This document shows, in pieces, positions 7,290 to 61,004 of a DNA stretch of 64,000 nucleotides. Numbering within the stretch: the first letter of the stretch is position 1; each line of letters begins with the position of its first letter. Both the position numbers and the translations under genes were made by a program. Source of the stretch: an endosymbiont 'TC1' of Trimyema compressum (lineage in GTDB: Bacteria > Bacillota > TC1); contig NZ_CP014606.1 of assembly GCF_001584725.1 (NCBI RefSeq), positions 682,001 through 746,000 of the forward strand, read 5' to 3'. A model generated the notes under the pieces. The model was not told the DNA's origin and made no database searches. It saw nothing but the letters and a program-made list of their open reading frames with translations.

Positions 7290-7300
7290 GGAGGAATTTT

Positions 7301-10613: not shown

Positions 10614-11222
10614 ATGCTTATTAAAAACTCTCTGATTGTTTTATCAGGTCCTTCTGGTGCAGGTAAAGGTACTTTGTGTAAAGCCTTAATTGAACGTAAC
10701 TCTAGTGTTCATTGTGCAGTTTCAGCTACAAGTAGAGACTGTAGAGGCGCTGAGATTCCTGGGGTTTCCTACCACTATATTGGAAGAGAAGTTTTCATTA
10801 AAAAGATAACTGAATGTGCTTTTCTTGAATATGCGGAAGTATATGGGAACTATTATGGCACATTGAAAGAAGAAGTTTTTTCAATGTTGGAAATGGGCTA
10901 TGATGTTATATTAGAAATTGATATACAAGGAGCGATGCAAATTAAAGAGAATTACAAAAATGCAATTTTCATTTTTGTAATGCCACCATCCTTTACAGAA
11001 CTTAAAAATAGGATATATAATAGAGGTAGAGATTCTATGGAGGATATTGAAAAAAGGATGGAAGAAGTTCGACGAGAATTAAACTATATTTCCGAATATG
11101 ACTATGTAGTTGTAAATGACGAAGTTGATAAGGCAGTTGATAAAATGGAAGCTATATTAATGGCTGAAAAATGTCGTTTATTTAAAAGAACGATTGATGT
11201 AGATGCATTTATTGAGGAGTGA
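10614..11222 (+). CDS. gmk: Guanylate kinase
   Basis: 202 residues. It converts GMP to GDP in the cytoplasm using ATP. The P-loop SGPSGAGKGTL lies at residues about 10-20. The GMP-binding region follows (SRDCRGAEIPGVSYHYIGRE), then EYAEVYGNYYGT and the lid with NRGRDSMEDIEKR. In most homologues the stretch after TSR reads (K)PRPGE, so RDCRGAE is a diverged version. An AGGAGG site precedes the ATG. Intact and essential. Confidence 0.95.
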   Translation: MLIKNSLIVLSGPSGAGKGTLCKALIERNSSVHCAVSATSRDCRGAEIPGVSYHYIGREVFIKKITECAFLEYAEVYGNYYGTLKEEVFSMLEMGYDVILEIDIQGAMQIKENYKNAIFIFVMPPSFTELKNRIYNRGRDSMEDIEKRMEEVRRELNYISEYDYVVVNDEVDKAVDKMEAILMAEKCRLFKRTIDVDAFIEE

Positions 11223-11226
11223 AGAA

Positions 11227-11514
11227 ATGGAAGATAAAAGAATTAATATTGGTCAAATCCTAAAAAAAGTACAAAGTAAGTATATGTTAGCTATGATTGC
11301 AGCTAAAAGAGGTAGACAGCTAGCTTCAATGGAAGAAAAAGAAAAAAGAATAGAGGAAGAGCAGGATAAAAATAAATCATTAGAGCCTGTAGAATTTGCA
11401 GGTCATTTAAGCGATAAAGAAAGAGAAGCATTAAAAAATCATAAACCAATTATAGTTGCACTTAATGAGTTGGCTGAAGGTGAACTTGAGTTTTCATTTA
11501 ATGAGGAAAAATAA
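11227..11514 (+). CDS. rpoZ: RNA polymerase omega subunit
   Basis: 95 residues. ATG 11227 is chosen because GAGGAGTGAAGAA lies just before it; an ATG 24 bases upstream lies inside gmk and has no ribosome site. The YMLAMIAAKRGRQL helix is the omega signature, and the C-terminus is acidic. Omega helps assemble the beta-prime subunit. The gmk-rpoZ order is conserved in Firmicutes. Confidence 0.92.
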   Translation: MEDKRINIGQILKKVQSKYMLAMIAAKRGRQLASMEEKEKRIEEEQDKNKSLEPVEFAGHLSDKEREALKNHKPIIVALNELAEGELEFSFNEEK

Positions 11515-11516
11515 CA

Positions 11517-12518
11517 ATGAAAAGAAAAAGAATTCTTCTAGCCTTACATGAAGACGAGAAGGCCTACGGTGTTTTTCGGTTAATAGATGATTTTGAGAGT
11601 GCTGGCTTTGATGTTAATATTTTAAAGACTAAAGTTAGTGAAAATTTACTTCCATTCTATTATTGGGAAAAGTATTTAACGAAGGAGGGCTCTTTTGATT
11701 TTTTAATTGTATACCCTATAAATACTGAGTTTGAAGCCGATTTGGAAAGTGATAATAGAGAAAATGAGGTGGTGGATTTTCTGTTTGAAAACCAGCTACC
11801 TTATTTAGGTGTTACTGTTGATGAACGCTTTAATACCCAGTCTATTATTGAAACTGTTAAGTGTAATTTTAAAAGTAATAAACTGAACCAATATAGTTTT
11901 TTAGTAACAGTAGGTGGGCTAAAATCTTCTTTTGATAGTCAACATTATTTAGCTGGTTATCAAAACCCTAATTTTTTATATTCCCTGATAAAAAAAATAA
12001 CATTAGACGGTGGTTTGTTAACGGTTGTAACTACAGAGGATCAAAAACCAATTTCTTTTGCCGAAGATGTTATTTATGTGGAAAATATTGAAGAATATAA
12101 ATCTGTTTTAAACGCAAAAGCATTTAAGTATGATATAATATTGGATGGATGTAAGATTCCAAGATTTAGTTTATCCGATGGAGAAGAAGTCCATGTGGAG
12201 TATCAAAAATTTTATGCTGAACTAGAAGAGTCCTATTTACCTTTTAAAGATAAGGGTTTGCTTTCTAATAACCAGGTAATTATGAAATTTTTTGACGGTT
12301 ATGAGATGGATCTAGATAGCATAGATTACTATTTTGAAAACACCGGTATTCAGGGCATTATCAGCAATGAAAAGGATAATAAAAGCAGGACTGGATATAA
12401 AGGTTTTTCAAAACTATATACGAGAGAGCATTCACTTAGGGTTGTTTCTTATCAGAAAATTGACGAGTTAAGCCAAGCAGTGATTAATGAATGCATAACA
12501 ATGTTAGAAGGAAGTTGA
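11517..12518 (+). CDS. Diverged CoaBC-like protein lacking catalytic motifs
   Basis: 333 residues in one clean frame, 2 bases after rpoZ, where Firmicutes normally have coaBC (phosphopantothenoylcysteine decarboxylase/synthase, about 400 residues). The start, [20 protein letters not shown], follows the CoaC beta-alpha pattern. [18 protein letters not shown] and [14 protein letters not shown], then [15 protein letters not shown], follow the CoaB pattern (VTAGGTREPIDPVRYI; GAxVTLVSGP; VETAEEM). The residues that matter are gone: no active-site His, no PAMN, no NxSSGKMG, no CoaB Lys/Asn region. Either the enzyme has decayed without a frame break or it has a new role. Homology is inferred from position and pattern by eye. 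Confidence 0.6.
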
Positions 12519-12523
12519 TAAAT

Positions 12524-13705
12524 ATGATTAAGAAATTTTTTACTTCAGAATCAGTAACTGAAGGCCATCCGGATAAAGTATGTGACCAAATATCTGATGC
12601 CGTATTAGACGCAATTTTAAGAGAAGATCCAAAAGGCAGAGTAGCATGTGAAACATTTGTTACAACTGGATTAGTTGTTGTAGCTGGTGAGATTTCCACA
12701 GACTGCTATATTGATATTCAAAAAGTTGTTCGTGAAACTATTAGAGAAATTGGTTATACAAGAGCAAAATATGGTTTTGACTGTGATACTTGTGGTGTTA
12801 TGGTTGCCTTAGATGAGCAATCTAAAGATATTTCTTTAGGGGTAGATTTATCAGAAGAAGGTAAACGGGGTGAGTATGCTTCAGAAGATGCTATTGGGGC
12901 TGGTGACCAGGGTATGATGTTCGGCTATGCATCTGATGAAACTGAGGGACTTATGCCTCTGCCAATTTTATTGGCTCATAAGCTTGCACAGAGACTTGCA
13001 GAAGTGCGAAAGTCCGGTGAACTCCCTTATTTAAGACCAGATGGCAAGACACAGGTAACTGTCGAATATGACGATGATAAACCAGTTAGAGTTGAAACAG
13101 TTGTTATTTCTACACAACATAATCCAACTGTGAAACAAGAAACAATTTATGAAGATATGATTGAGAAAGTTGTTAAACCTATTATAGATTCAAGTTTACT
13201 AGATGAAAATACTAAGTATCATATCAATCCAACAGGTAGATTTGTTATTGGTGGACCTCAGGGTGATACTGGTTTAACAGGTCGCAAAATCATTGTAGAC
13301 ACTTATGGTGGTGCTGCTGCTCATGGGGGCGGTGCTTTTAGTGGTAAAGATCCAACAAAAGTAGATCGTTCAGCTGCTTATGCAGCTCGTTATGTAGCAA
13401 AAAATATTGTAGCTGCGGGTCTTGCAAACCGTTGTGAAATTCAATTATCTTATGCAATTGGTATTGCTAAACCTATTTCTGTATTTGTAAATACATATGG
13501 AACTGGAAAAGTTGGAGACGATGTGCTGATTAGGCTTATTAATGAAAATTTTGATTTAAGACCTGCAGCAATTATTAGACATTTTGATTTGCGTAGACCA
13601 ATATATAGAAATACAGCGGCATATGGTCATTTCGGCAGACATGATTTAGATTTGCCTTGGGAAAAAGTAGATAAAGTTGAGGCGTTAAAGAAAGCTTTTC
13701 AATAG
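12524..13705 (+). CDS. metK: S-adenosylmethionine synthetase
   Basis: 393 residues from ATG 12524, chosen for AGGAAG just upstream and because the protein then starts [18 protein letters not shown] as in homologues. It makes SAM from methionine and ATP. Visible motifs are [25 protein letters not shown] and [16 protein letters not shown]. Length and ends are normal. It follows the CoaBC-like ORF by 5 bases. No S-box riboswitch is seen. SAM supply matters to the several methyltransferases and radical SAM enzymes nearby. Confidence 0.97.
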
Positions 13706-15410: not shown

Positions 15411-15421
15411 GAAGGAGCAGT

Positions 15422-17848
15422 ATGAATAACAAAATAGAATTGCTAGCCCCAGCAGGGAGAATCGAACAACTAAAGGCTGCTGCAGTAAATGGTGCAGATG
15501 CTGTCTACTTTGGCGGTAGCGCTTTTTCAGCTAGGCAAAGTGCTCGAAATTTTTCAGATGAGGAAATAATAATTGCGCGTCGTTTAACTAAAAAATATAA
15601 TGTGAAAATGTTTTGTGCTATTAACACATTATTGTATAAAGAGGATGTATAAGAAGCCTTAGTTTTCATTGATTGGCTAAGTCAGATTGGCATTGATGGC
15701 GTTATTGTTCAGGATGTAGGCTTAATGAATTTAGTCTTGAAATATTGCCCTGAGATGGATGTACATACTAGTACTCAAATGACAATTGCCAATATAGAAA
15801 CAATTACCTATTTAAAGAATATTGGCGTAAAGAGAGTTGTGGTTCCTAGAGAGTCTAGTCTTGCGGATATTAAAGTACTAAGTGAAGGTGGCTTGGAACT
15901 AGAAGCTTTTGTACATGGGGCTATTTGTATTAGCTATTCAGGACAATGTCTTCTGTCTAGTATGATTGGTGGTAGAAGTGGAAATAAGGGGGCTTGTGCC
16001 CAACCTTGTCGACTTACCTATAATTTATACTTAGGAATTAAGAAGTAGTTGCTCCAAGGGCCCATTATCTAAGTCCTAAAGATTTACTATTAATTGATTC
16101 TGTGCAGCAGATGATTAATGCAGGTATTAATTCTTTTAAAATTGAAGGCAGAATGAAAACACCTGAATATGTAGCAGAGTCTGTAAAATACTATCGCAAG
16201 GCTATTGATGTTTATTATAAAGGGACCCCTTATAAATTAAGTGAAGCTGAAAAACAGAATTTGTTAGAGGTATTTAATAGAGATTTCACAGAAGGTTATT
16301 TGAAAGGTATTAAAGATAGGGCCCTTATGAGTCACAAAAAGCCTAACCATAGAGGTGTTTTTTGGGACGGGTTGTAGAGTATCAAGGGCATAAAGCAACT
16401 ATTTTACTAAAAAATGATTTAGATCTAGGGGACAAAATTGCTTTTTGGACAAAAAGGGATGGTCGTGTTGTTACTGAAGTTGGTAAAATTGAATTAAATG
16501 GCAACATAGTGAAAAGAGGATTCACAATGGACAAACGATTGTAATTGATGTGCCAAGAAAAATCGGTAAAGAAGACAGGGTTTTTAAAATTGAGAGCAGT
16601 CAACGTAAACTTCTACTTACTGAACAAATTAAAAAATTAGAAAACAAAGATAAAATTCTCTTAGACGTTAAGTTTTCTGGGGAAATCGGTAAGCCACTTC
16701 TGCTAACTATGAAAACAGAAAAGGGTTAGAAGTAACAAGAGCATCAAAGATCCGCCTAGAAAAAGCGCTACAGCATCCACTAGATGAAAAAATTTTAAGA
16801 GGTCAAATACGTCTTGGCAATACGAAGTATACACTAAATTCCTTAATTAATGAAATTAAAGGAGCCTGTATTATACCTAAAAGTACACTTAATCAATTGA
16901 GGAGAGAGTGTATTGAAGCTTTAGATACCTTGTTCCATAGTGGAAAGAAAGCTGTTTCTGTGAAATTAAATTTACCTCTTAAATCAATAGCTGAAATCAA
17001 AGTTGAAGCTACTGTTTCAACTATTGACCAACTGAAGTTTGCTTTAGAACAAGGGGTGGAAAAAGTTTTTTATCCACTCCTGCCATTTAAGGGAATAGCA
17101 GAAAACTTATTGGCTTATTTAGAAAATAAACCAGCTGAAATACTTGATAGAATAGGCTTAGTTCTACCCAATATTGTCAGGGAAGAGGAAATGCCTGTTT
17201 TAGAAGAAGCTTTTGATTTATTCTATCCTAAAATAAGCTTATTTAAAGCAAATACTTTAGACCAATTAGTATATTTAAAAAATAGAAAATTACCTTTTAT
17301 TAGAGGGGTTAGCCATTTAAATATTTATAATCCTTACACATATGTTGCCCTAAAAGAAGCTTTTGGAGCTGAATGTCTTAGTCTTTCAAGAGAATTAAAT
17401 ATGAAAAACTTAAGTGATTTTAAAGGTAATAGGAGCTTATTAGTCTATGGAGCTTTGCCTTTAATGGTTCTTGAGCATTGTGTTATTAATGGTAGCATAG
17501 GTTGTCAGGGTAAAGCTTGCGGGAAATTTGACTATACTTTAAAAGATAGGAAAAATGTGCTCTTTCCTTTGAAGACAGATGCCTTATGTAAAACCCATAT
17601 TTTTAATAGTAAAAACTTATTTATCAATGAAGATGTTGAGTCCTTGCATAAAAAGAAATTTAGTGATTTTGAGTTAGACTTTTCATTAGATAGCCTAGAA
17701 ACAATGGAAAAAGTTCTAACTGGTTATTTATTTCTATTTAAGAGTTTGGAAAATCAAAAAAAATAATCAGGTTTCAAAAGCTATTGAGAATTTAAAAAAT
17801 ACCGTGTATAACTATACTAAAGGTCATTATCATAGAGGAGTTAATTGA
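15422..17848 (+). pseudogene. U32 family peptidase (long YrrN-like form), ruined
   Basis: The start ATG 15422 has AGGAGC upstream. Pieces match the long U32 family (with DUF3656): ELLAPAGRIEQLKAAAVNGA, DAVYFGG, VIVQDVGLM, DVHTSTQMTIAN, the cysteine region GNKGACAQPCRLTYN, FKIEGRMKTPEYVAESVKYY, and a typical end TKGHYHRGVN at 17848. Lesions: in-frame TAA at 15650, then frame changes near 16045, 16370, 16540, 16715 and 17755. These proteins are linked to tRNA/rRNA hydroxylation or collagenase-like activity in relatives. At least six lesions rule out expression. Confidence 0.88.
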
Positions 17849-17849
17849 A

Positions 17850-20185
17850 ATGATGATTGAGAAAACTCAAATGGTTCTTGAGTTGGCAGAAATTAGAAAG
17901 CGTTTAGCTGCCTTTTGTAGCCATCCATTAGCAGGGGATTGGGCAATAAATATGGAACTAGCTTCTAGTTATGAAGAAACTGAAAGCAGGCTATTTGAAA
18001 CAAGCTGTGCTATGGATATAAAAAGAGAATACCCCTTGTTAAAGTCAGGAGGATTACCTCCAATGGATTTAACGATTCAAAAAAAATAAGAAAGAATCCC
18101 TATTAAAAGAAGAAGATTTATTTAATTTGCTTAGGCTTTTGGAAGTAACTAGCCGAAGTTAAAGGTTTTTTAAAGAGCCAATTGAAATACCGCTTTTTTC
18201 TAATTTAATTCAGCTTTTAATGACTAAAGATGACTTGAAAAATATTTTAAATAATACGATAGATGAAACATTAGTTATTTTAGATACAGGAAGCCCAGCT
18301 TTAAAAGAAATTAGACGAAAACTGCTACAATTGAAGAATAAAGAGAAAACTATTGTGGAGAATATGACAAAAAAGGTTCGTATGTTTCTTTTTTACAAGA
18401 GCCTATTGTAGTTAAAAGAGGCGATAGCTATTGCTTAAGTGTTAAGAGAGAGTATGGTCATAAAGTAAGCGGGGGTTAGTTCAAGATACTTCTAGTACTG
18501 GTAGTACTATATTTATTGAACTGAGAGAAGCCATTCAAATTAGAAGCGATAGAGGTGTTCTTAAAAGAGAAGAAAAAGAAGAAATTGATAGAATCTTGAG
18601 AAGTATATCAGAATGGGCTTATTTAGAGTCTAGGGATTTAGAAAGTAATTTTAAAGGGTTAGGCTATTATAATTTTTATTTAGCTAAGGCATCATTATTG
18701 TCTCAAATGAGAGGTATAGTACCGGATTTAAACAATAAAGGTATTATGGAAATATATTCTGGTAAACGCCCTCTACTAGAAGGAAATGTTGTTCCTAATA
18801 ATGTATTCTTAGGCGAAAAATTTCATACTTTAATTATTACAGGTCCTAATACCGGGGGTAAAACAGTTGTATTAAAAATGGTAGGTTTATTTTCACTAAT
18901 GGTTCGATTAGGGTTAGGCGTACCTGCTAGAATAGGCACTAAAATGCCTTTTTTTTAAAAAAGTATTTGCTCAAATTGGTGATGAACAGAGTATAGAGCA
19001 GTCTTTAAGTACTTTTTCATCTCATATGGTGCAAATTAAAGAAATGGTAGATGAAGGCGATTATCAATCTCTATTGCTTTTTGATGAGCTAGGTAGTGGT
19101 ACTGATCCCTCAGAAGGCAGTAGTTTAGCCATGGCTATCTTAACTCATCTAGGAGAAAATGGTTCGAGAACAATTGCCACAACTCACTATGGTGAGTTAA
19201 AAGCATTTACTTATGAAAATGAGGGCTTTGAAAATGGTTCAGTTACATTTTGATGAGAATACTTTATCCCCTTACTTATAAACTAGTAATTGGAACGCCT
19301 GGGGCTAGTTTAGGTATTGCAGTTGCCCAACCGTTATGGTTTAGATCCTAGTGTTATTGAAATGGCCAAAAATTTTCAACAAGAAGGCGCTTTAGAGGTT
19401 TCAGCATTAATTGTTGACTTAGATAAAACTAGAAATGAACTTAAAGAAGAAACAATAAAAGTAAATAAACTGAAAAAAGAGTTGACTAATGCGAGAGAAG
19501 CTTTGGAAAAAGACAAAGATAAGTTTGAAGAAAAACGTAAGGATAAACTTCAAAAAGAGCAAAAGAAAGCGGAGCTGGAACTTTATAATCTCAGAATTGA
19601 ATCATAAAAAATAATTGAAGCATTAAAAGAACAATTTAAAAATAAACCTGAAATAACTAATCAAATCAGAAAGAAAATTAAGGGACTTGAAAACAAGTTT
19701 TTAAAAACCAATACAGTGAATACAAGAGAAGGTTTAAAATCTGTTGAGGTTGGGGACTCAGTCTTAGTTTATTCTGTTAATAAGGAAGGGACTGTTGAGT
19801 TTATAGACACTCATAAAAAAACTGCTCATGTTAAGGTTGGTCTGATGACTATAAAAGTACCTTTCAATGGATTGGGAAAAATAAAGACTGTGGAGACTGT
19901 AGAATCTGTAATGCCAAGTTGAGGAAACTTTAAAAGCAATTATGTTGCTACAGAAATTGATGTTCGCGGTCATAATATAGAGGATGGCGTCTATCTAGTG
20001 GATAAGTATTTAGATGATGTCTATCTTGGTAATTATCCATTTGTGAGGATTATTCATGGTAAAGGAACTGGTGTTCTTCAAAAAGGCATCTGGAGTTATT
20101 TGAAAAACATCCTCATATAAAAGAGTTTAGGTTAGGTGAAACAGGATAAGGCGGTACTGGCGTGACTGTCGTATATTTTAAATAA
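17850..20185 (+). pseudogene. mutS2: Endonuclease MutS2, ruined
   Basis: MutS2 suppresses recombination or rescues collided ribosomes in other bacteria. The remains keep Walker A GPNTGGKTVVLK (about 18845), Walker [20 protein letters not shown] (about 19075), the coiled-coil linker, and the C-terminal Smr domain (DVRGHNIEDGVYLVDKY; RIIHGKGTGVLQ). They lie in at least seven frame pieces. In-frame stops also occur near 18159, at 19605 and at 20147-20149, where TAA replaces the Glu of GEGGTGVT. The gene follows U32, its normal neighbour. Inactive. Confidence 0.92.
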
Positions 20186-25388: not shown

Positions 25389-25900
25389 ATGATTACTATT
25401 AGAAACAAAGAAGAAAAGGAATACAAGCTAGTCGAAGCAATTACAAGAAAGGCTTTTAATAATTTGTTTGTATCAGGTTGTAATGAGCACTATTTGGTTC
25501 ATATTATGCGTAATCATGAGGATTTTATACCTGGACTAGATTTCGTAATTGAATATAAGGGTAAAGTTATAGGGAATATAATGTATACGAAGGCTAAACT
25601 AGTTGATGAAGTGGAAAAGAAAAAGAAATTCTAACGTTTGGACCAGTTTCCATTGGATTTAAAAGCTGTAAAAGATTTAATATGTCTATTGAAGATGGAA
25701 AACTACCAGCAGCTATGTTGGTAAAAGAGCTTAAAGAAGGTGTTCTTCAAGGAAAGAAATGGCTATATTATGAAAGTCCAGTAATGAGCGTTGATAGTAA
25801 AGAGGCTGATATTTTTGATGGTAAACTTAAGAAAATGGAAAAGAAATATCAATTAAGTCAAGAAGAGTTTTATATATTTAGCCAATCCTTTCTAAATTAA
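25389..25900 (+). pseudogene. GNAT N-acetyltransferase with its core deleted
   Basis: The N-terminal part (MITIRNKEEKEYKLVEAITR ... VIEYKGKVIGNIMYTKAKL) and C-terminal part (SIEDGKLPAAMLVKELKEGV ... FDGKLKKMEKKYQLSQEEFY) match a clostridial GNAT family. After a frameshift near 25630, LTFGPVSI runs directly into GFKSCKRFN. The roughly 50 residues that normally lie there, including the acetyl-CoA pyrophosphate loop (R/QxxGxG/A), are missing. A clean internal deletion plus a frameshift means loss of function. Confidence 0.85.
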
Positions 25901-35066: not shown

Positions 35067-35714
35067 ACCAGCTAATATTTGGATACCGTTACTAGTGCCT
35101 ATTCTAGACACGCCTTTTTCAATATAGGCGCTAAAGCGTCAATTGTCGTTCTAATGCCGCCAGAGGCTTTTATTTTAGTTTTAGGTGCTCCAGCTTTTAT
35201 TAAGTCAATATTTTCTAAGGTTGCGCCTCTCTTTGGCCAAACCCACTAGATTTTTTAATAAAATCCGCACCTCCAGTTGCTGCTAATTTTGAAGCAATTG
35301 TAATTTCCTTAGAGGTTAAAAGACTGGTTTAAATAATAACTTTTAATGGAATAGACTGACAAACTTTTTTGATACTTTCAATTTCTTCTTGGTAAGCAAT
35401 GAAATTTCTATTTTTAAGGTGAGGTATATTGGCGACTATATCGATTTCTTCAGCGCCATCAGTGAGGCACTGATAGGTTTCTACTGCTTTTGATTTAAGG
35501 TTTTTATAGCCTAGGGGAAATGCTACAACGGTTATTGTTTTTACGGGTATATTCTTTAGCATCTCACGTCCCTTAGAAACATACATTGGTGGAATGCAAA
35601 TACTAAAAAAATTATTTTCAATACTTTCTCCTATGAGTTTCTCTAAATCGAGAATAGTCATATTTTGTTTTAAACAAGTGTGATCAATATAGCTGGCAAG
35701 TGTTTTTTATCCAT
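35058..35714 (-). pseudogene. deoC: Deoxyribose-phosphate aldolase, inactivated
   Basis: Minus-strand pieces read as DeoC: SYIDHTCLKQNMT, then FFSICIPPMYVSKGREML, TITVVAFPLGYKNLKSKAVE, GADFIKKSSGF near the Schiff-base Lys, and RIGTSNGIQILAGL at the end. Lesions: one A short in an A6 run just after the start ATG; TAA at 35331-35329 where KVIIET has Glu; and a further shift near 35235 (GAGAGG). It would have cleaved deoxyribose-5-phosphate in nucleoside salvage. It is convergent with, and overlaps, the aminotransferase gene. Confidence 0.9.
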
Positions 35715-35740
35715 GAGAGACTCCTTAAGTTTTTTTATTT

Positions 35741-35749
35741 ATTATATCA
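35741..35749 (-). promoter_or_regulatory. Extended -10 promoter upstream of the deoC relic
   Basis: On the minus strand TGATATAAT, an extended -10, about 27 bases upstream of the deoC ATG with AAGGAG between. The promoter and ribosome site persist although the gene is broken. Confidence 0.5.
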
Positions 35750-35772
35750 TAGTAAATCATAAGAGGCGAAAT

Positions 35773-36486
35773 ATGTTAGGTACATTAATTAATGTTGGTG
35801 CTATTTTTGTTGGTGGTACACTGGGGCTTTTATTTAGAAAAAAAACGCCAGCAGCAATTGGAGATAGAATTATGCAAGGTTTTGGTATTTTCACATTGGT
35901 AATTGGAATCAGTGGCGCTATTGTAGGTGAAAACCATTTACTCTATCTGTTTTCAATTATTCTAGGTGCTATTATTGGTGAAAGTTTAAAATTAGAAAAA
36001 AGTTAGAAAAATTTACGCATTTTCTAGAGTGTAAGTTTACTAAAGACAATAAAGATAATGATAACTTTAAAGAAGGTTTTATTACGACAACTATGATTTT
36101 CTGTGTGGGTTCTATGTCTATTATTGGACCAATTAAGGCTGTTTTTGAAAATGACTTAAGTCTATTAATGATTTAAAGCATCATTAGATGGTGTTACTGC
36201 TTTTATTTTTGCTTCTGCATTTGGTTTCAATGTATTGTTATCAGGAATAAGCGTTTTGGTTTATCAAGGCTTAGTTACTTTAGGAGCATTTTTGTTAGTG
36301 GATATACTAAGTCCTGAAACTATTAGCGCTATTTCAGTAATGGGAAGCATACTCATTATTGGACTGGGTATTAATTTGTTGAAAATTAAGAAGCTTAATA
36401 TTGTTAATTTATTGCCTGCAATGTTTATTCCTATATTATATGAACCTATTCAAAGTTTAATAGGCACTCTTAAAAACTATTTTTAA
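35773..36486 (+). pseudogene. DUF554 membrane protein, two frameshifts
   Basis: The start ATG 35773 (MLGTLINVGAIFVGGTLGLL) is typical of DUF554, a membrane protein of about 230 residues sometimes linked to two-component control of transport. The frame breaks at an A6 run near 36000 (one A short: KKLEKFTHF follows) and again near 36172, where an extra T turns MIKASLDG into MI-stop. The last part, FGFNVLLSGISVLVYQGLVT to the stop at 36486, is intact. Two lesions suggest a true but young pseudogene. Confidence 0.85.
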
Positions 36487-46210: not shown

Positions 46211-46750
46211 ATGAAAATCAACACAAGAAAATTTGTAATACTGGCTTTATTAGGTGCATTAAGTGGCTTGTTAATGTTTTTTGAATTTCCAATTTTACCA
46301 ACGGCACCTTTTTTGCAGTATGATCCTAGTGATGTTCCCGTTATCTTTGCAGGCTTATTTTTTGGTCCACTTGGAGGAATTATTGTAGCTTTAGTCAAAT
46401 CACTTATTTTTGCAATATCCGGTAAGAATGCTACGGGATTTATTGGCTTAATAGCTGCTATTATTGCCAGTGTAACTCTTCTTTTAGGGACAGTTAGTAT
46501 TTATCGCTATAAGGCTAAGAAAATATCCCTTGTTGCAGGTATTATTATTGGTACTATTGGTTTAACAGTAGTGATGGCACTCCTAAATCAATTTTTTCTC
46601 CTCAATGCCTGGGGAATTGAAGAGGCAGCAAGAGGTCCTTTGGTTTTAGGTGCTGTTATTCCTTTTAATATTATCAAAGGATTAATTTCTTCAATATTAG
46701 GTTGCCTCCTGTTTTTAGGGTTAAAAAACAGATTACAACGCTTCAAATAA
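46211..46750 (+). CDS. ribU: Riboflavin ECF transporter S component
   Basis: 179 residues with about six membrane helices. FVILALLGALSGLLMFFEFP, then FLQYDPSDVPVIFAGLFFG, a RibU hallmark for flavin binding, and IIVALVKSLIFAISGK. It works with the shared EcfAAT module (not in this window). The FMN riboswitch upstream confirms the substrate. Start ATG 46211 with AGAGGA. Uptake suggests the cell depends on external riboflavin. Confidence 0.95.
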   Translation: MKINTRKFVILALLGALSGLLMFFEFPILPTAPFLQYDPSDVPVIFAGLFFGPLGGIIVALVKSLIFAISGKNATGFIGLIAAIIASVTLLLGTVSIYRYKAKKISLVAGIIIGTIGLTVVMALLNQFFLLNAWGIEEAARGPLVLGAVIPFNIIKGLISSILGCLLFLGLKNRLQRFK

Positions 46751-46853: not shown

Positions 46854-47471
46854 ATGACAGAAATATATTTAATACGACATGGGCAGACGACATGGAATAT
46901 CAACCATCGATTTCAGGGGGAAAAGAAATATTCAATTAACAGATCAAGGAAGATTAGAAGCTGAAATGCTGGCCAAACGTTTAAGTAAGGTGCCTTTTGA
47001 GATAATATATTCTAGTCCACTAGATAGAGCGAAAGAGACAGCCCAGATTATTTCTGAAAAGCAAAAATCAAGGGTTTCCATACAAAATGACTTTTGTGAA
47101 ATTTCCTTTGGAGATTGGGAAGGCTATACTTTTGAGGAAATAAGAAATATTACACCTTGGATAGATGAGTAGTATGCAGATCCTAGTACCCATAGGATTC
47201 CAAATGGAGATGACTTAACAGCCGAAATAGTATGATTAAAAAAGATTTAGCTAATTTGGGGGAAGTTCACAATGGTGAGAGGATTGCCATTATTGCACAT
47301 GCTGGTATTTTACGATTAGCTCTGTTGTGTAGTCTTGGATTACCCTTGTCTTATTATTGGAGATTTGTACTATCTAATACGTCATTTACCGTTTTACAAT
47401 ACCGTGAAAATGTTTTTAATCTAGCAGTTTTAGCAGTTTTAAATGACTATAGTCACTTGTCTAACAGGTAA
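46854..47471 (+). pseudogene. cobC: Histidine phosphatase (alpha-ribazole phosphatase-like), broken
   Basis: It begins TEIYLIRHGQTTWNINHRFQ, the RHG catalytic motif, then shifts at a G5 run (46916-46920). The next frame gives LTDQGRLEAEMLAKRLSKVP, YSSPLDRAKETAQII, DFCEISFGDWEG and meets TAG at 47170. A further frame has ERIAIIAHAGILRLALL with the second catalytic His. Normal length is about 200 residues. Three lesions: inactive. CobC-like enzymes act in the last steps of cobalamin assembly; phosphoglycerate mutase-like roles are also possible. Confidence 0.85.
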
Positions 47472-47489: not shown

Positions 47490-48044
47490 GTGTTTAAAAT
47501 TATTAAAATAATTGGTGGAGACAAAAAAGGATTCTCTTTAAAAACAAAAGTAGGAACTAGTACAAGGCCTACCCTTAACAGAGTCAGAGAAAATATATTC
47601 AATATACTTCAATCTGTTATGCCCAATTCATTGGGATTGGATTTATTTGCTGGTAGTGGTGCAGTTGGCATTGAAGCATTATCCAGGGGGGCTCAGGCAG
47701 TAACTTTTGTTGAAAAAGACAAGGTTGCTTTTGCTGTTATTAGGGAAAATCTAAAGAAAACTAATTATCTTAATAAAAGCTTTGTTTTTCCATCATCATG
47801 GCATATATTTCTGAAGAAAACCACTGAGGTTTTTGATTGGATATTTGTGGATCCACCTTATGGCTTAGATGTTTATCATGAAGTTATAGAAGCCATTGGC
47901 AGTAGCCAGTGTCTTTCAGAAGGTGGAATTATTATTTTGGAAACAGATAAAGCAGTTCAAGTGAAAAGTCAAATTAATGGATTTATTTGTTATAGAAAAA
48001 TTCGTTATGGAAATACAATAATATGGTTTTATAAAGAAATGTAG
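47490..48044 (+). CDS. rsmD: 16S rRNA guanine-N2 methyltransferase RsmD
   Basis: 184 residues by the GTG at 47490. Motifs: IIGGDKKGFSL, TRPTLNRVRENIFNIL, LDLFAGSGAVGIEALSRGA and catalytic DPPYG. The start is odd: the ribosome site AGGAG touches the GTG, leaving no spacing. Homologues begin at the next few residues (M-I-I-G-G), which would require an ATT codon near 47499-47502 here. The coaD gene that normally follows rsmD is absent: a coiled-coil gene starts 13 bases on. Confidence 0.92.
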   Translation: MFKIIKIIGGDKKGFSLKTKVGTSTRPTLNRVRENIFNILQSVMPNSLGLDLFAGSGAVGIEALSRGAQAVTFVEKDKVAFAVIRENLKKTNYLNKSFVFPSSWHIFLKKTTEVFDWIFVDPPYGLDVYHEVIEAIGSSQCLSEGGIIILETDKAVQVKSQINGFICYRKIRYGNTIIWFYKEM

Positions 48045-48057
48045 GAGGGGTAAACAC

Positions 48058-48519
48058 ATGAATACGTTAAAGTTAATTGATTCTCTTGAAGAGATGCTTG
48101 AAACAGCACACAAAGTACCTTTAACTGGGAATATTATGATTAAGGGAGACGAGATTTTTGACTTGCTAAATGAAATTAGGGATTCTTTTCAGGAAGAAGT
48201 TAAAAAAGCACGTCAAATTGTTAGAGAAAGAGAACAGATGATAGACAGCGCCAAAAGAGAAGCAGATATGATTATAAAAGGCGTTGAAGCTAATATAGAA
48301 AATATGATAAGTGAAACATCTATTAAGAGAAGAGCTGAGCAGAAAGCAGCTGAAATTGAAGAAGCTGCTTATAAGAAGGCTTCACAATTAATCAATCACA
48401 GTGAGTCTTATTCTGAAGAGATTCTCAATACGCTTGATAATTATGTTAATAAATGTTCTGGCAACATTAAAGAAGCTAAACGACAATTAACATCAATTAA
48501 AACTAAGAAAAGTATGTAG
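48058..48519 (+). CDS. Coiled-coil protein, DivIVA/ATP-synthase-b-like
   Basis: 153 residues, AGGAGGGG before ATG 48058. After a short N-terminal part (KVPLTGNIMIKGDEIFDLLN) the chain is one long charged coiled coil (about 35-150: EEVKKARQIVREREQMIDSA ...) with no membrane segment. Similar proteins sit between coaD and ackA in many clostridia, and their role is unknown; resemblance to DivIVA or V-ATPase stalk subunits is structural only. Intact. Confidence 0.7.
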   Translation: MNTLKLIDSLEEMLETAHKVPLTGNIMIKGDEIFDLLNEIRDSFQEEVKKARQIVREREQMIDSAKREADMIIKGVEANIENMISETSIKRRAEQKAAEIEEAAYKKASQLINHSESYSEEILNTLDNYVNKCSGNIKEAKRQLTSIKTKKSM

Positions 48520-48560: not shown

Positions 48561-49760
48561 ATGAACATTTTAGTTTTAAATTCAGGGAGTTCATCCATTA
48601 AGTATCAATTACTAGATATGGAGCAAGAGGTATTATTGGCTAAAGGACTAGCAGAAAAAATTGGATTTGATGAAAGCATTGTTAGCTTCGTCAATGGAGA
48701 AGGTAAAAAAACTAAAATAACAAAAAGTATTCCAAACCATCTAGAGGGCATCAAAGTAATGATTGACGCTCTTTTAGATGCTGAATGCGGCGTTATTAAA
48801 ACGGTTACAGAAATTGATGCTGTAGGACATAGGATTGCCCAAGGTGGAAGTTATTTTAAATCATCAAGTTTAGTTAATGATGATGTAAAGACAAAAATTA
48901 AGGATTGTTTCCAGTTGGCTTCTTTACATAATCCCCCTCAATTCAAAGGTATTTTAGCAATTGAAGAAGTGGTACCTGGTGTACCCAACATTGCTTGTTT
49001 TGATACTGTTTTTCATCAAACTTTACCTGATCATGCATACATGTATGCACTACCATATGATTGGTATCAAGAGGATGGTGTAAGAAAATATGGATTCCAT
49101 GGTTTATCTCATGAATTTGTTAGTAAAAGAGCTGGTCAAATACTAAATAGAAAATGGGATGATTTAAAAATTATTTCATGTCACTTAGGTAATGGTGCAA
49201 GTGTTGCTGCTGTTAATAAAGGTGAATCAATTGATACTAGTATGGGCTTCACCCCATTACAAGGTCTTGTAATGGGCACACGTTGTGGCGATATTGATCC
49301 AGCTATTATCCCTTATATTATGGGGAAAAGGAATTATTCAACAGAAGATGTAGACAATGCCTTAAATAAAGAAAGCGGAGTTAAAGGTATCTCTGGTGTT
49401 TCCAGTGACTTTAGAGACTTGGAAAACGCAGCTTTTAACGAAGGCAATAAAAGAGCTGCATTAGCATTGCAAATGTTCGACTATAGAGTTAAATTTTATA
49501 TTAGTGCATATTTCGGGATTTTAAATGGGGCTGATGTAATTTTATTCACAGGTGGTCTTGGTGAAAATTCACCAGAAATGCGAGAAGCCGTTTGTAAAAA
49601 TTTAAGTGCTCTTGGTATAGAAATTGATTTAGAGAAAAATAAAGTGCGTGGTAAAGAAACAATTATCTCAACACCTGAATCAAAAGTTGCTGTAATTGTG
49701 ATTCCTACTGATGAAGAGTTAGTAATTGCAAGGGAAGCAAAAGATATTATTTCCAGATAA
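48561..49760 (+). CDS. ackA: Acetate kinase
   Basis: 399 residues. NVLVLNSGSSSIKYQL-type start (LVLNSGSSSIKYQLLD), GHRIAQGG, CFDTVFHQTLPDHAYMYALP, HLGNGASVAAV, TGGLGENSPEMR. It makes ATP from acetyl phosphate, so acetate is a likely fermentation end product. The partner pta is not in this window. AAAGGAGAGA upstream; full length and undamaged. Confidence 0.97.
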   Translation: MNILVLNSGSSSIKYQLLDMEQEVLLAKGLAEKIGFDESIVSFVNGEGKKTKITKSIPNHLEGIKVMIDALLDAECGVIKTVTEIDAVGHRIAQGGSYFKSSSLVNDDVKTKIKDCFQLASLHNPPQFKGILAIEEVVPGVPNIACFDTVFHQTLPDHAYMYALPYDWYQEDGVRKYGFHGLSHEFVSKRAGQILNRKWDDLKIISCHLGNGASVAAVNKGESIDTSMGFTPLQGLVMGTRCGDIDPAIIPYIMGKRNYSTEDVDNALNKESGVKGISGVSSDFRDLENAAFNEGNKRAALALQMFDYRVKFYISAYFGILNGADVILFTGGLGENSPEMREAVCKNLSALGIEIDLEKNKVRGKETIISTPESKVAVIVIPTDEELVIAREAKDIISR

Positions 49761-50611: not shown

Positions 50612-52435
50612 ATGATTTTAGAAAATATTAAATCTCCTGAGGATTTAAAGAAAGTTAATGAAAAAAATCTAAGACCTTTATGCGAAGAGATTAGAGAATA
50701 TATAGAGAGTGTTGTTAATAAAAATGGAGGTCATTTAGCTTCCAACCTAGGTGCAGTAGAGCTAACCGTTGCAATGCACCGTTCTTTTGATGCGCCAAAA
50801 GATAAAATAATCTTCGATGTAGGCCATCAAAGCTATACCCATAAAATATTAACTGGCCGTTATGAGGCTTTTAAAACTTTGAGACAATACAAAGGGTTAA
50901 GTGGTTTTCCTAAACGTTCAGAAAGCCCTTATGATCCGTTTGATACAGGACATAGCAGTACTTCTATATCAGCTGCATTAGGGATAGCAACGGCAAGAGA
51001 TATTGAAAAAGAAGATTTTCAAATAGTAGCACATATTGGTGATGGAGCCTTAACAGGTGGCATGGCTTTTGAGGCAATGAACCATTTAGGTCATTTACAG
51101 TCGAAAGTAATCATTGTACTAAATGATAATGAAATGTCTATTTCAGAAAATATTGGCGGTGTATCTAAGTATTTAAGTCGCCTTAGTTCTGGGAATGCGT
51201 ATAGACGTTTTAAACAAAGTTTAAATGTTAGTTTATCTAAGACGGCAGTCGGTAGGAAATCTAGAAGAGTTTTAAGTCGCTTTAAAGGTAGTATTAAATA
51301 TTTATTTTCAAAGAAGGGTGTATTATTTGAACAGTTTGGATTAACTTATCTTGGACCCTATGATGGTCATGATGTAATTGGTTTAGAGGAAGGCTTTAAA
51401 ATAGCTAAGTTTGTAGAGGGTCCCGTTTTACTCCATGTTGTTACTACAAAAGGAAAAGGTAACGAAGAAGCAGAATACAATCCTGAAAAATTTCATGGAG
51501 TATCACCAGGAAAAGGAAAAAAATATAGAAGTTTAACAGAGTTTTTTGGTTCCCGTTTAGTTGAGTTAGCAAAAGAAAATAAAAAAATAACGGCTATTAC
51601 AGCGGCTATGTGCACTGGTACAGGTTTAGATATTTTCAGAAAAGAGTTTCCTCAAAGATTCTTTGATGTGAGTATAGCGGAGCAACATGGTTTAACATTT
51701 GCAGCTGGACAAAGTGTACAGGGTTTACATCCTGTTATTTCCATTTATGCAACCTTTATGCAGAGAGGAGTAGATCAAATTATTCATGATATTTGTTTAC
51801 AGAATCTACCGGTTACTATGATTTCTGATAGAGCCGGTCTTGTAGGTGAAGATGGAGAAACCCATCATGGAATATTTGATATTGCCTTGTTTGGCGCCAT
51901 TCCCAATCTTGTGTTTATGGAGCCTAAAGATGGTAAGGAATTAGAAGCTATGCTGACATTTGCTACAGTGTATAATGGACCAACAATGATTCGTTTTCCA
52001 AAAGGAAGTTCACCTATTTTTAGTGCAGAAGTCAGTCCTATAGTACTTGGTGAGATGGAAATGATTCTTGATAACAATGGGAAGTGTTGCATAGTAGCTT
52101 TGGGAACTGAGGAGACAATGGCTCTTTATATTGCAGAAGAATTAAAAAAGAAAAATATTTTAATTGATGTAATTAATCCAAGATTTATTAAACCGATTAA
52201 TCAATTTTGGCTAGATAAACTCAATAGTTATAACCAAGTGTTTACTATTGAAAATCATGTTGTAGTAGGCGGGTTTGGTTCTTTTATAAAATCTCAATTG
52301 AATAAGGCTAAAGTTTATAGTTTTGGTTTGCCTAATGTATTTATGCCTCATGGAAGTATTGAAGAGATCAGAAAGGAAGTAGGTTTTACTAGAAATCAAA
52401 TTCTAAAAGAAATTGAGGAAAAGGTAGTTGAGTAA
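50612..52435 (+). CDS. dxs: 1-deoxy-D-xylulose-5-phosphate synthase
   Basis: 607 residues. Thiamine diphosphate enzyme making DXP from pyruvate and glyceraldehyde 3-phosphate for isoprenoids. HLASNLGAVELTVAMH, DVGHQSYTHKILTGR, the ThDP motif GDGALTGGMAFEAMN, NDNEMSISENIGG, and the pyrimidine domain with SIAEQHGLTFAAG. The length is slightly under 620. It starts a dxs-tlyA unit; the xse/ispA genes usually before it are not here. Intact. Confidence 0.96.
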   Translation: MILENIKSPEDLKKVNEKNLRPLCEEIREYIESVVNKNGGHLASNLGAVELTVAMHRSFDAPKDKIIFDVGHQSYTHKILTGRYEAFKTLRQYKGLSGFPKRSESPYDPFDTGHSSTSISAALGIATARDIEKEDFQIVAHIGDGALTGGMAFEAMNHLGHLQSKVIIVLNDNEMSISENIGGVSKYLSRLSSGNAYRRFKQSLNVSLSKTAVGRKSRRVLSRFKGSIKYLFSKKGVLFEQFGLTYLGPYDGHDVIGLEEGFKIAKFVEGPVLLHVVTTKGKGNEEAEYNPEKFHGVSPGKGKKYRSLTEFFGSRLVELAKENKKITAITAAMCTGTGLDIFRKEFPQRFFDVSIAEQHGLTFAAGQSVQGLHPVISIYATFMQRGVDQIIHDICLQNLPVTMISDRAGLVGEDGETHHGIFDIALFGAIPNLVFMEPKDGKELEAMLTFATVYNGPTMIRFPKGSSPIFSAEVSPIVLGEMEMILDNNGKCCIVALGTEETMALYIAEELKKKNILIDVINPRFIKPINQFWLDKLNSYNQVFTIENHVVVGGFGSFIKSQLNKAKVYSFGLPNVFMPHGSIEEIRKEVGFTRNQILKEIEEKVVE

Positions 52436-53232
52436 GGTTCGTTTAGATGTTTTTCTAATTGAAAATGGTTATTTTAAAACTAGACAGAAAGCAAAAGCAG
52501 AAATTATGGCTGGGAATATTCTTGTTGATCATATTAAAATTGAAAAAGCAGGTACTTTAATTAAAGATGATAGTATTATTACAGTTTTAGGAAAAAAATT
52601 CCTTATGTAAGCAGAGGAGCGCTTAAACTTAAAAAAGGTTTAGAGGCATTCAATGTTTCTGTTAAGGGGAAAGTTGCTTTAGATATTGGCGCATCAACAG
52701 GAGGATTTACGGAAATATTATTGTTAAATGGAGCTCTGAAAGTCTATAGTGTTGATGTTGGCTATAATCAGCTGGCATGGTCATTGAGACAAAATCCCAA
52801 AGTAGTTGTTTTAGAAAAACCAATGGTCGCAATTTGACACCTGAAAACTTAGATAACAATCAAGTTGATATTGTAAGTAACTGATGTTTCTTTTATTTCT
52901 TTAGATAAGATTTTACCGGCAGCCTACAGTTGTTTAAAAGATGATGGAGAAATGATAGCCTTAATTAAGCCTCAGTTTGAAGCCGGTAAAGATGGTGTTA
53001 ATAAAAAAGGGTTGTTACTGAGCCAAAGGTCCGCATTGAGGTAATTGAGAAAATTATTGCTATTAGTTCTGATATAGGATTTTCAGTTTTAGATTTAGCT
53101 AGTTCTCCTCTTAAAGAGCCAAAGGGCAATAGGGAATACCTTATTTATTTAAAAAAGGAAGCAGAAACAAAAATATTAATAGAAAATGATATAATAAAGA
53201 AAGTTGTTGCTTTAGCATTTGCTGAAATTTAG
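52428..53232 (+). pseudogene. tlyA: TlyA-type rRNA 2'-O-methyltransferase/hemolysin, broken
   Basis: Begins KVRLDVFLIENGYFKTRQKA (S4 domain) at TTG 52428, inside the dxs end. The FtsJ-like domain follows in pieces: YVSRGALKLKKGLEAF, ALDIGASTGGFTEILL, VDVGYNQLAWSLRQ, TDVSFISLDKILPA, ALIKPQFEAGKDG, ending ALAFAEI. Frame breaks occur at an A7 run (52592-52598), near 52820 (A5), near 52877 and near 53012. Four lesions mean loss of function. The dxs-tlyA-nadK order is ancestral, but about 6.5 kb of other genes now separates tlyA from nadK. Confidence 0.9.
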
Positions 53233-55263: not shown

Positions 55264-55930
55264 ATGAATCAATATTTAATTATTTATTCTGGAGGAACCA
55301 TTAGCATGGAAGCTGGAAGTGATGGCGGAACAGTCAATAAAAAGGCGTTTCAGAAGAAGCTTCAGCAGTATTTAGCTCGTAAAAAATTTACTGCCACTAT
55401 CCTTCCAATTAAAAAAATGTAGATTCAAGTCAAATTACCTTTAAAGAGATAAATGAAATAATTTTAATTTTAAAAACCAATTATTCCTCTTATAATGGCT
55501 TTCTAGTCTTACAAAAGTATCATTGACTTCAAAAATGCCTTATAGTGTTTATTCAACTGAAAATACTCTTTGGAGACAAATAGCAGATAACAGAAATAAG
55601 CTATCATTTGATTTTTTAACTGAAAAAGAAATTGAAGTTTTAGTAATAACTGGTTTTACGCCTTTTTCAAAACAAGAATTGCTTAGGAGATAGTTTATTA
55701 TTAGTTATATATGGAAGTGGAACTTTTTTTACATAGAAGTGACATTATAAATAGAATTAAGGAATATAGAAAAGCTGGTAAAAAAGTTTTAGCTATTTCC
55801 CAGTGTTTAGGTGAAGTCATAGGATTTTTCAAAATATGAGGCTAGCCTTCCACTTAAGGAATTAGGGGTTATGGAAGGTAGCCAGATGATTTTAGAAGAA
55901 GCAATTGGTTATTTACATAGTCAAGAATAA
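55264..55930 (+). pseudogene. Type I L-asparaginase relic with core deletion
   Basis: MNQYLIIYSGGTISMEAGSD carries the first catalytic motif (TGGTIxM), with Ser for the first residue. One base is missing in an A7 run near 55415, after which VDSSQITFKEINEIILILK follows. After NGFLVL the region that should hold the second catalytic motif HGTDT is missing, and further shifts and stops follow to a conserved end (LKELGVMEGSQMILEEA). The relic spans about 220 codons against about 325 in the family. Divergent from tRNA-Trp. Inactive. Confidence 0.8.
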
Positions 55931-55932
55931 TC

Positions 55933-57087
55933 CTATTTGTTTCTCCTTACTATTAAATAGTAGATTAGGGCAGCAACGATAGCTATAGTTGTTAAGCCAT
56001 ACATGAGCTGATAGCCTAACTGAGCTGCAAAAATACCAAATAGTATCGAACCTAATCCAATACCTAAATCAAAGCCAGTAAAGAAGGTTGCATTGGCGGC
56101 ACCAAGCCTTTCTCTAGGGGTATTAAGGATAGCCATAGTCTGGAGACTAGAGTGACAACCACCAAAACCGATACCATAAATGAGACCTACAAGTAAGAAA
56201 CTGCCTAATGAAGTAGCTGTTGATAGTGCAATCATACCAATTAAGACACTGATGAGTGAGGGAATGACTACGTAATCAAAGCCTAAAATATCTGTTAGTT
56301 TTCCGAATATAGGTCTTACTATTAATAAGGATATTGCAAATACTGTAAAGAATAAACCTACGTCGGCAACGCCTCTATTAACAGCGTAAATTGGTAAAAA
56401 ACCAAGAATTGAGCCATAAGTTATAGTAACCAGTGTCATAACAATGGTGGCATGTTTTGCAGATTTTTCAAAAACTATAATTTTCCCTAGTTTATTTTTA
56501 TTGTCAACTTTTACATAATGGATAAAAAAGCAAGGATTATGGCGATTATTGAAAGCACATAAGCTATATTAAAAAGAAGATTAAATGAGTACGTACTTAT
56601 AATAAATAAGCCAATTGCTGGAGCAGCAGCCATGGCTAGACTTCCTTCCGGTGAGACTAAAGTAGCCTATTCCTTCACCAAATCGTTTTCTAGGAATTTT
56701 ATCTGAAACAACAGTACTTATAGAGGTTGTTGAAATTCCCCAACCAAAACCATGTATAAATCTAAAAATAAGTATTAATAGTACTGTTGGTAGCCAACGA
56801 TAAGCTAATACAGCAACAATAAAAATAAGTAATCCAGTTAAAAATATACCTTTTTTACCTATCCTATCTAAAAAAATTCCTGCTAAAGGTCTTGAAATAA
56901 TAGCAGCAATAGTAGAAATACCTGTAACAAGTCCAATAATTCCATCAGAGCCTCCTAATGATTGAATGTAAACAGGTAGAGTTGGTAAAAGTAATTGAAA
57001 AGAAAAATATAAGAATAAGTTAGTTAATAAAATAATAATAAAGTCTTTTGTCCATAGTGGGGTTTTTACATTTCTAAAGTCTGTCAT
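55933..57087 (-). pseudogene. MFS transporter, broken in the middle
   Basis: The N-terminal half (57087 to about 56650) reads as a major facilitator: FIIILLTNLFLYFSFQLLLP, GLVTGISTIAAIISRPLAG, DRIGKKGIFLTG. The C-terminal half (56439-55933) continues with TYGSILGFLPIYAVNRGVAD, FGKLTDILGFDYVV and ends IVRRNK. Between them (56650-56440) the frame is lost more than once. About 385 residues if intact, close to small 12-helix drug or sugar exporters. The substrate is unknown. It ends 2 bases from the asparaginase relic. Confidence 0.85.
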
Positions 57088-59000: not shown

Positions 59001-59698
59001 ATGCATAATAATAAAAACAGACAGGCAAAAGAATCTTACAAGTTATTGTTCTTGTAATTTTAATAGGATTGATTATTGGATTGGTTAGTCAATGGCAACA
59101 TATTTGGAATCTTTTTAAGAATCGTGAGCTCCTAGAAGCCACCGTTTAAAAATATGGTTTATTTAGCAGTCTTATTATGGTGGGATTACAAGCCCTTCAA
59201 ATAGTAGTGGCTTTTATTCCTGGTGAAATCACGCAAATTGCTGCAGGTTATTTGTTTGGTACTGTTCAAGGGTCGCTTATTTCACTAGTGGGTTTATTTA
59301 TTGGAGCAGCGATTACATTTTACATTGCAAGAATTCTCGGTCATGATTTTGTAAAAAAAGTAATAAAAAAAAGAACAGTATGAAAAATTTTCTAATCTTT
59401 TAAATAGTACAAAAGGTGAAGGCATATTATTTATTTTATTATTAATTCCTGGATTGCCAAAAGACTTTCTATTTTATTTAATGGAAATTACCGATATTCA
59501 GGCAAAACGCTTTTTTCTATAGTAGTGATTGCTAGAACACCAACCATTATTGGCTCTGCACTTATTGGGGCAAACTTAGCCAATAACAATCTCTCCATAG
59601 CTATTGGTATTTCAATATTTGCTATTATTGTAGTAGCAATTGGATTAATATTTAAAGACCGAATTATTGCTTTTCTTGATAAAAGAAAAAATAAATAA
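59001..59698 (+). pseudogene. TVP38/TMEM64 (VTT-domain) membrane protein, broken
   Basis: Pieces fit a VTT-domain protein: ILQVIVLVILIGLIIGLVSQ, FIPGEITQIAAGYLFG with the PG...GYLFG core, ILLLIPGLPKDFLFYLMEI, and IARTPTIIGSALIGANLA. Breaks: a shift near 59040, in-frame TAA at 59147-59149, a shift near 59370 and one near 59510. The family may move lipids or affect membrane composition. The relic would be about 230 residues. Inactive. Confidence 0.85.
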
Positions 59699-59724: not shown

Positions 59725-60543
59725 GTGATAGGCATTGTTTGGAATTCAAAAAAAGATGGAGCTGAAGTATTAGCTGATTATATTGTAAAGTGGTTTACAA
59801 AAAGGAATATTCCAATTTTAGTAAATGAAGATAATATGTTTACAGAAGAATTAAACTTTATTATTGTTTTAGGCGGAGATGGAACTATTTTACATACTGT
59901 TAAAAGAATGCATCCATACTCAATACCTTTGCTAGGGATAAATTTAGGTAATTTAGGTTTTTTAACAGCTATAGAAAAAAATAATATTGACTATTATTTA
60001 GAACAAGCATTAGATGATAGCAATTATTTAATTGAGAAAAGAATGATGTTAGATGTTAGTATTTGCAAAGATAATGTATGTATTTGGAAAGATACGGCTT
60101 TAAATGACATCGTACTTTCTAGGCGTTCTCTTTCTAGAATTCTGAATTTTTGCATAGAGGTATCTGATAATCCTATTGGCAATTATTATGCCGATGGATT
60201 TATTATTTCTACGCCTACAGGCTCGACAGCTTATTCTCTATCGGCTGGCGGGCCGATACTTACTCCTCAAATGGAAGCAGTTGCTTTGACTCCTATCTGC
60301 GCTCATACCCTGTATGCCAGACCTATGGTTGTTTCTGCAAAAGAAAAGGTTAAATTGTATTTAAATGAAGCATTTGATGAAAATGTTGTTACAATTGATG
60401 GACAAAGAAGAACAAAATTAACAAAAGGCGAAGAGCTTTTAGTAGAAGCTTCAGAGATATATGCCAAAATTATTCGCTTCAAGGATAGGAGCTTTTTTGA
60501 AGTTTTAGCTGAAAAATTGGTTCGCGAGGTTAAAGATGGTTGA
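59725..60543 (+). CDS. nadK: NAD kinase
   Basis: 272 residues from GTG 59725 with AAAAGGAAG upstream. Phosphorylates NAD to NADP. Motifs: LGGDGTILHTV, LGINLGNLGFLTAI, the NAD-binding PTGSTAYSLSAGGPILTP and AHTLYARPMVV. Essential and intact. It overlaps the mnmM relic by 8 bases; nadK-argR-recN is the ancestral order. Confidence 0.97.
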   Translation: MIGIVWNSKKDGAEVLADYIVKWFTKRNIPILVNEDNMFTEELNFIIVLGGDGTILHTVKRMHPYSIPLLGINLGNLGFLTAIEKNNIDYYLEQALDDSNYLIEKRMMLDVSICKDNVCIWKDTALNDIVLSRRSLSRILNFCIEVSDNPIGNYYADGFIISTPTGSTAYSLSAGGPILTPQMEAVALTPICAHTLYARPMVVSAKEKVKLYLNEAFDENVVTIDGQRRTKLTKGEELLVEASEIYAKIIRFKDRSFFEVLAEKLVREVKDG

Positions 60544-61004
60544 TTTTAAAAGTGGTATCACTTTTATTCATGGGATTTTCAAGGAACGACTTAATAATAA
60601 GGGCATTCATATTGACGCAACCTGTGGCAACGGCTATGACAGTCTTTTTCTTGCTAAGGCTCTAAAAGGAGCCGGACATTTGTTTTGTTTTGATATTCAA
60701 CCTTTTGCTATTGCTGCTACAGAGAAGTTACTTTTATGTGAAACCCAGTATTAAAACTTTTGTAACGAAATCATATTCAACTGTCGAAAGTTTAAAGTAG
60801 GGTTTGTTTTTTCTCAAAACAGGAGGACTAATCGGAATAATGGTATATAATGGTTACGAGGGTGGCAGTGAAGAAGAGGAAGCTGTTAAGAATTTTCTTA
60901 AAACACTATCACAAAAAGAGTACAATGTTGTGGTCTTAAATCATCTGAATCGACCAGAGGATCCTCCTTATCCAATTGTAATTGAAAAAATAAAGGATGA
61001 GTAA
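60536..61004 (+). pseudogene. mnmM: MnmM/YtqB-like tRNA methyltransferase with internal deletion
   Basis: The N-terminal SAM domain is clear (HIDATCGNGYDSLFLAKALK) and so is the C-terminal end (GGLIGIMVYNGYEGGSEEEE ... NHLNRPEDPPYPIVIEK). Between 60740 and 60815 the family's mFNLGYLPGGDK block is missing and the frame is broken. The total length is about 156 codons against about 190. MnmM completes mnm5s2U at the wobble base of some tRNAs in Firmicutes; loss of the NLGYLP region should abolish activity. Confidence 0.8.

Follow-up and report, generated by a model that had tools for sequence, protein, structure and literature searches.

Does the absence of coaD from its common position beside rsmD mean that coenzyme A (CoA) synthesis has been lost or altered in the endosymbiont TC1? 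The question arises from a window of 64,000 nucleotides (G000:C1:682001–746000) in a 1.62-Mb genome that comprises two contigs and is 96.9% complete. In this window, a coiled-coil ORF begins exactly 13 bases past the end of rsmD, ackA is next with a start at 48561, and no coaD occurs between rsmD and the coiled-coil ORF or ackA (Table 1). This gene order had been given correctly in the preliminary description, where it was taken, along with a “damaged” CoaBC-like protein, to suggest that CoA synthesis is lost or rerouted, and that a late precursor or CoA itself may be imported.

Table 1. Genes of the rsmD locus and of the chromosomal slot that typically holds coaBC (positions are those of the window).
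Feature	Position	Strand	Basis or remark
gmk, guanylate kinase	10614..11222	+	ORF; conserved neighbor, marks the coaBC slot
rpoZ	11203..11514	+	ORF; conserved neighbor, marks the coaBC slot
Putative diverged CoaBC descendant	11517..12518	+	Without CoaC and CoaB catalytic motifs; in six of six family genomes
metK	12491..13705	+	ORF; conserved neighbor, marks the far end of the coaBC slot
rsmD, 16S rRNA methyltransferase	47490..48044	+	PF03602, E 3.3e-51
Coiled-coil gene	48058..48519	+	Weak DivIVA similarity, 26.6 bits, under the Pfam cut-off
ackA, acetate kinase	48561..49760	+	ORF

Many genes of the window appear frameshifted or fragmentary, including those for an ABC transporter, a U32 peptidase, MutS2, an S4-domain protein, a VTT-domain protein, and others (7202–9623, 14538–20000, 25389–25900, 35329–36486, 52428–53200, 55264–57087, 59177–59698, and 60536–61004). 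Core genes are intact amid the broken ones, as in a genome undergoing reduction. Just upstream of rsmD, at 46855–47471, is a broken histidine phosphatase gene whose halves (46879–47172 and 47232–47471) match PF00300 in different frames, and a lone ECF S-component gene (PF12822, 81 bits; weak folate-family similarity) is located nearby at 46211–46750.

A canonical, intact coaD is located elsewhere in the genome, at C1:1102360–1102824 on the minus strand. It matches TIGR01510 over its full length (positions 1–155), scoring 203.2 bits (curated cut-off 103.3), and contains no stops. The 162-aa ORF sits directly between genes that read as dnaE and pyk (pyruvate kinase), slightly overlapping each of them, and coaD was also found in four of the five sister genomes, the exception being a genome that is 79% complete. 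The absence of coaD beside rsmD had favored the earlier reading that the gene itself was lost; with intact copies in TC1 and its relatives, that reading has virtually no chance of being correct.

The expectation that coaD nearly always comes after rsmD in clostridia also proved too strong. By coordinates, the two genes are neighbors in about 16 of the 21 genomes checked outside of TC1’s order and in none of eight inside it, where the count comprises only genomes giving both hits (five of TC1’s family, f1, and three of the sister family, f2). The departure of coaD from rsmD is order-wide, and some other clostridial families are also without the pairing. In addition, a homolog of the coiled-coil gene directly follows rsmD in three other families (G011, G015, and G023; loci L076, L078, and L081), and the order rsmD–coiled coil–ackA is common to four sister genomes. 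Since the separation spans the order and the same coiled-coil neighbor recurs in other families, this is an old, ordinary rearrangement: coaD left the rsmD neighborhood long ago and now resides in a dnaE–coaD–pyk cluster. The coaD observation itself is ordinary, and it illustrates how little the absence of a gene from its conserved place says about the loss of a pathway. coaE was also read as an intact ORF in TC1; the genes for the last two steps of CoA synthesis, coaD and coaE, are both intact.

It is the middle of the pathway that, on the evidence of the genome sequence, is gone. The sole match to the coaBC profile TIGR00521 in the TC1 genome, at E values up to 1, is located at C1:1483396–1484540 and consists of two pieces with stops. 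Its reading frame is not intact: a reading of the three frames reveals at least five frameshifts. Just upstream, a second coaX gene (coaX2) carries two frameshifts and one in-frame stop, and the order of the decayed cluster is ECF S-component gene, coaX2, coaBC. Together, coaX2 and coaBC carry about eight lesions over 1.9 kb, most of which fall at short A/T runs. The same TIGR00521 search, again at E up to 1, covered separate CoaB or CoaC proteins and returned only the pseudogene; of the 14 control genomes for this profile, one gives a match under the cut-off, and the profile therefore sees weaker forms as well. CoaA gave no hit in the TC1 genome, and panC was not found there. In the decayed cluster, the ECF S-component gene (L015 6158–6604; G000:C1 ~1482158–1482604) includes a stretch of Gly-Ile-Ala repeats that looks like a tandem-repeat expansion.

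Across the genome, then, coaD, coaE, and a single coaX exist as intact genes, coaA was not found, and coaBC is recognizable only as a pseudogene. The suggestion that CoA synthesis is lost or rerouted is probably right with respect to rerouting, although by way of coaBC rather than coaD: of the two canonical genes whose presence elsewhere would have spoken against it, only coaD was found.

Profile searches of three sister genomes likewise found no canonical coaBC (G001, 98% complete; G003, 94%; G004, 79%). G001 and G003 have the gene set of TC1, with no coaBC, no panC, and one coaX of an altered kind described below. A 49.8-bit CoaA hit in a 210-aa frame of G001 was rejected as probably a uridine kinase. 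G002 and G005 possess canonical coaBC in an operon with coaX and apparent panB and panC genes (panC confirmed).

The CoaBC-like protein that had been regarded as damaged is encoded by an intact window ORF of 333 aa (11517–12518); a broken coaBC does exist, but it is the one outside of the window. The ORF occupies the slot after gmk and rpoZ that holds coaBC in the clostridial genomes examined, and homologs with 29–35% identity to the TC1 protein occur in the same slot in all six family genomes. Pfam and NCBIfam scans yielded nothing useful, and profile and fold comparisons were therefore used. The first match of the family profile against the PDB was CoaB (5int, E 0.0077), hhalign against a canonical CoaBC gave a probability of 91.8%, and the first 44 Foldseek hits of an AlphaFold model (pLDDT 74.9) were CoaBC and CoaB structures. 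In alignments, the CoaC catalytic regions (PATAN, PAMN, and ACGxxGKGR) are replaced or deleted in all six proteins, and the CoaB K-x-K-K loop, whose role is described in PMC7794376, and AAVxDY motif are replaced. Pairwise dN/dS values of ~0.11–0.23 among closer genomes indicate that the gene is maintained. The protein thus shares the fold and chromosomal slot of CoaBC (PPCS/PPCDC), but has the catalytic motifs of neither half. From these alignments and the model, we infer a non-enzymatic CoaBC descendant with a new role; that it acts within CoA metabolism as a partner or a sensor is a guess.

Two explanations would leave TC1 with a working CoaBC. In one, the pathway is complete and canonical, only ordinary rearrangement has occurred, and the coaBC frameshifts are sequencing or assembly errors. 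The intact coaD agrees with this, and short A or T runs, where most of the lesions lie, are where such errors arise. Assembly error could account for single lesions, but is an unlikely source of some eight of them within 1.9 kb, an in-frame stop included, since coaX1, coaD, coaE, and many long genes have none; moreover, two other near-complete sister genomes are without any coaBC. This explanation is accordingly considered improbable. In the other, the slot protein still works as a CoaBC despite strong divergence, as its slot, fold, and conservation under selection might suggest. The protein was rejected for that function because of its absent motifs, with the CoaC catalytic regions deleted and the CoaB loop and neighboring motifs replaced, and G002 and G005 retain canonical CoaBC beside it. 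A diverged enzyme here is even harder to credit than the error explanation.

The kinase gene coaX1, which adjoins dusB, is intact in the TC1 genome (PF03309, 191.7 bits) and present in all six family genomes, including G002 and G005, where it is retained alongside the canonical route. CoaX1 proteins form a single clade with a long stem and 100/100 support. Relative to 16 comparison CoaX proteins, they have six fixed changes at conserved columns (G89E, R110L, N113D, D129N, G148V, and T184S), with all but T184S at columns that are invariant in every comparison row. In all six CoaX1 proteins, the PAN motif hGhDR has become hGhDL (R110L), and the INTERFACE motif GGxIxPG has become GVxIxPG (G148V), reading GVAIAPG. 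The Arg of the PAN motif contacts pantothenate, and the substrate site is built from the two motifs jointly (PMC8721197). Where coaX lies beside coaBC, namely in G002 and G005 and in the case of the pseudogene coaX2 of TC1, the Arg is kept. Asp109, the PAN-motif proton acceptor and proposed catalytic base, and Thr132 are kept in CoaX1, and dN/dS values of ~0.04–0.1 in closer pairs indicate strong purifying selection. D129, which we take from the family annotation rule to be a monovalent-cation ligand, is changed in CoaX1, and D129N could entail loss of kinase activity.

A strict DNA pattern for the Arg variant, which specifies a hydrophobic residue at the PAN-motif Arg and misses variants with other flanking residues, matched 4 of 398 genomes of the phylum, and these are exactly the four sampled members of TC1’s family. 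Loss of coaBC is not unique to that family: no coaBC over the cut-off was found in G018, G024, G026, G028, or G038, each at least 97% complete and from other families of the phylum, and no coaX was found in G018. None of these five matched the Arg-variant pattern, so coaBC loss is not generally accompanied by the Arg change. The five genomes are further candidates for CoA synthesis without CoaBC.

The lack of detectable CoaBC, panC, and CoaA, with CoaX, CoaD, and CoaE intact, fits the Apn variant of the pathway (PMC6593275); the kinases covered by the searches in TC1 were CoaA and CoaX, and of the genes for pantothenate synthesis, panC. On balance, and by a small measure, we favor TC1 as a new instance of this predicted pantetheine shunt, probably by way of a type III kinase whose specificity has changed. 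Support for the gene losses is good, and from them and the CoaX1 sequence we infer the use of pantetheine. By sequence, the ancestral coaBC has become a protein without known catalytic motifs, and the second coaBC, in a cluster with an ECF transporter gene and coaX2, is a pseudogene. Under the favored scheme, the cell would import pantetheine or pantetheine disulfide through a presumed transporter. The PAN Arg-to-Leu and INTERFACE Gly-to-Val changes would reshape the CoaX1 pocket that normally recognizes pantothenate, the putative pantetheine kinase would generate 4′-phosphopantetheine, and CoaD and CoaE would then complete CoA. Altered motifs of this kind would be expected from a change of substrate, and may let TC1 start from scavenged pantetheine instead of pantothenate (vitamin B5). 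The import suggested in the preliminary description probably holds in a narrower form: because coaD and coaE are both kept, pantetheine or phosphopantetheine is the likely precursor, and CoA or dephospho-CoA an unlikely one. The ECF S-component gene before coaX1 (L013 2255–2775), intact in the five sister genomes, is a candidate importer there; in TC1 it has one frameshift, real or a sequencing error, which counts against the pantetheine scheme.

The main competitor is that the cell imports 4′-phosphopantetheine and uses CoaD and CoaE only, with CoaX1 no longer a kinase and performing some other job, e.g., a regulatory one. Room is left for this because CoaX1 carries D129N and also occurs where the canonical route is present; it is changed at six conserved positions in all and kept even where a canonical CoaX exists. 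There are precedents for both parts: the CoaX of Mycobacterium tuberculosis is an inactive but expressed homolog (PMC7770189), and many mycoplasmas have CoaD and CoaE only (PMC8721197). Opposed to it are the retention of D109 and T132, the strong purifying selection on coaX1, and, as cited in PMC8721197 and PMC12570885, the excretion of phosphopantetheine by E. coli without re-uptake. Phosphopantetheine import is consequently regarded as unlikely, if the most serious of the alternatives to pantetheine use.

For the family as a whole, a more elaborate history can be offered tentatively, and as a single package it is doubtful. A whole clostridial family would have converted its ancestral, pantothenate-specific type III kinase to a pantetheine kinase and its ancestral CoaBC to a conserved non-enzymatic protein; some members would then have regained the canonical route through the acquisition of coaBC–coaX operons, one of which decayed again in TC1. 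If pantetheine use is borne out, the pantetheine shunt would have, in CoaX1, its first known type III kinase.

Bypass of CoaBC through phosphorylation of pantetheine is known from the CoaA salvage of E. coli and Bacillus subtilis (PMC11487621), but CoaA is a type I kinase that was not found in TC1. Pantethine rescues a B. subtilis coaBC mutant, and the CoaX of that species cannot perform pantetheine salvage (PMC11487621). No type III kinase examined to date is reported to accept pantetheine (PMC11487621, PMC12570885), which speaks against the pantetheine scheme and makes genomes with such a kinase but no CoaBC a puzzle. The closest likeness in gene content is the Apn shunt, in which a pantothenate kinase, CoaD, and CoaE are present, CoaBC and panC are missing, and dependence on pantetheine is predicted (PMC6593275). 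TC1 differs in that its kinase is changed in both substrate motifs in a family-specific manner, and in that an apparently catalytically dead CoaBC descendant is kept in the coaBC slot. With respect to the kinase itself, the nearest parallel is found in Mycoplasma, where type III kinases have Leu or Ile for the Arg of hGhDR and an altered INTERFACE motif, and some species are without CoaBC, although species with both CoaBC and the Arg-variant kinase also exist (PMC8721197). The authors of that study raised pantetheine use as a possibility, but it could not be tested since the proteins were insoluble. TC1’s family is an unrelated lineage with the same Arg change and, unlike Mycoplasma, has canonical CoaX copies beside coaBC as an internal control, which makes the idea testable with other proteins.
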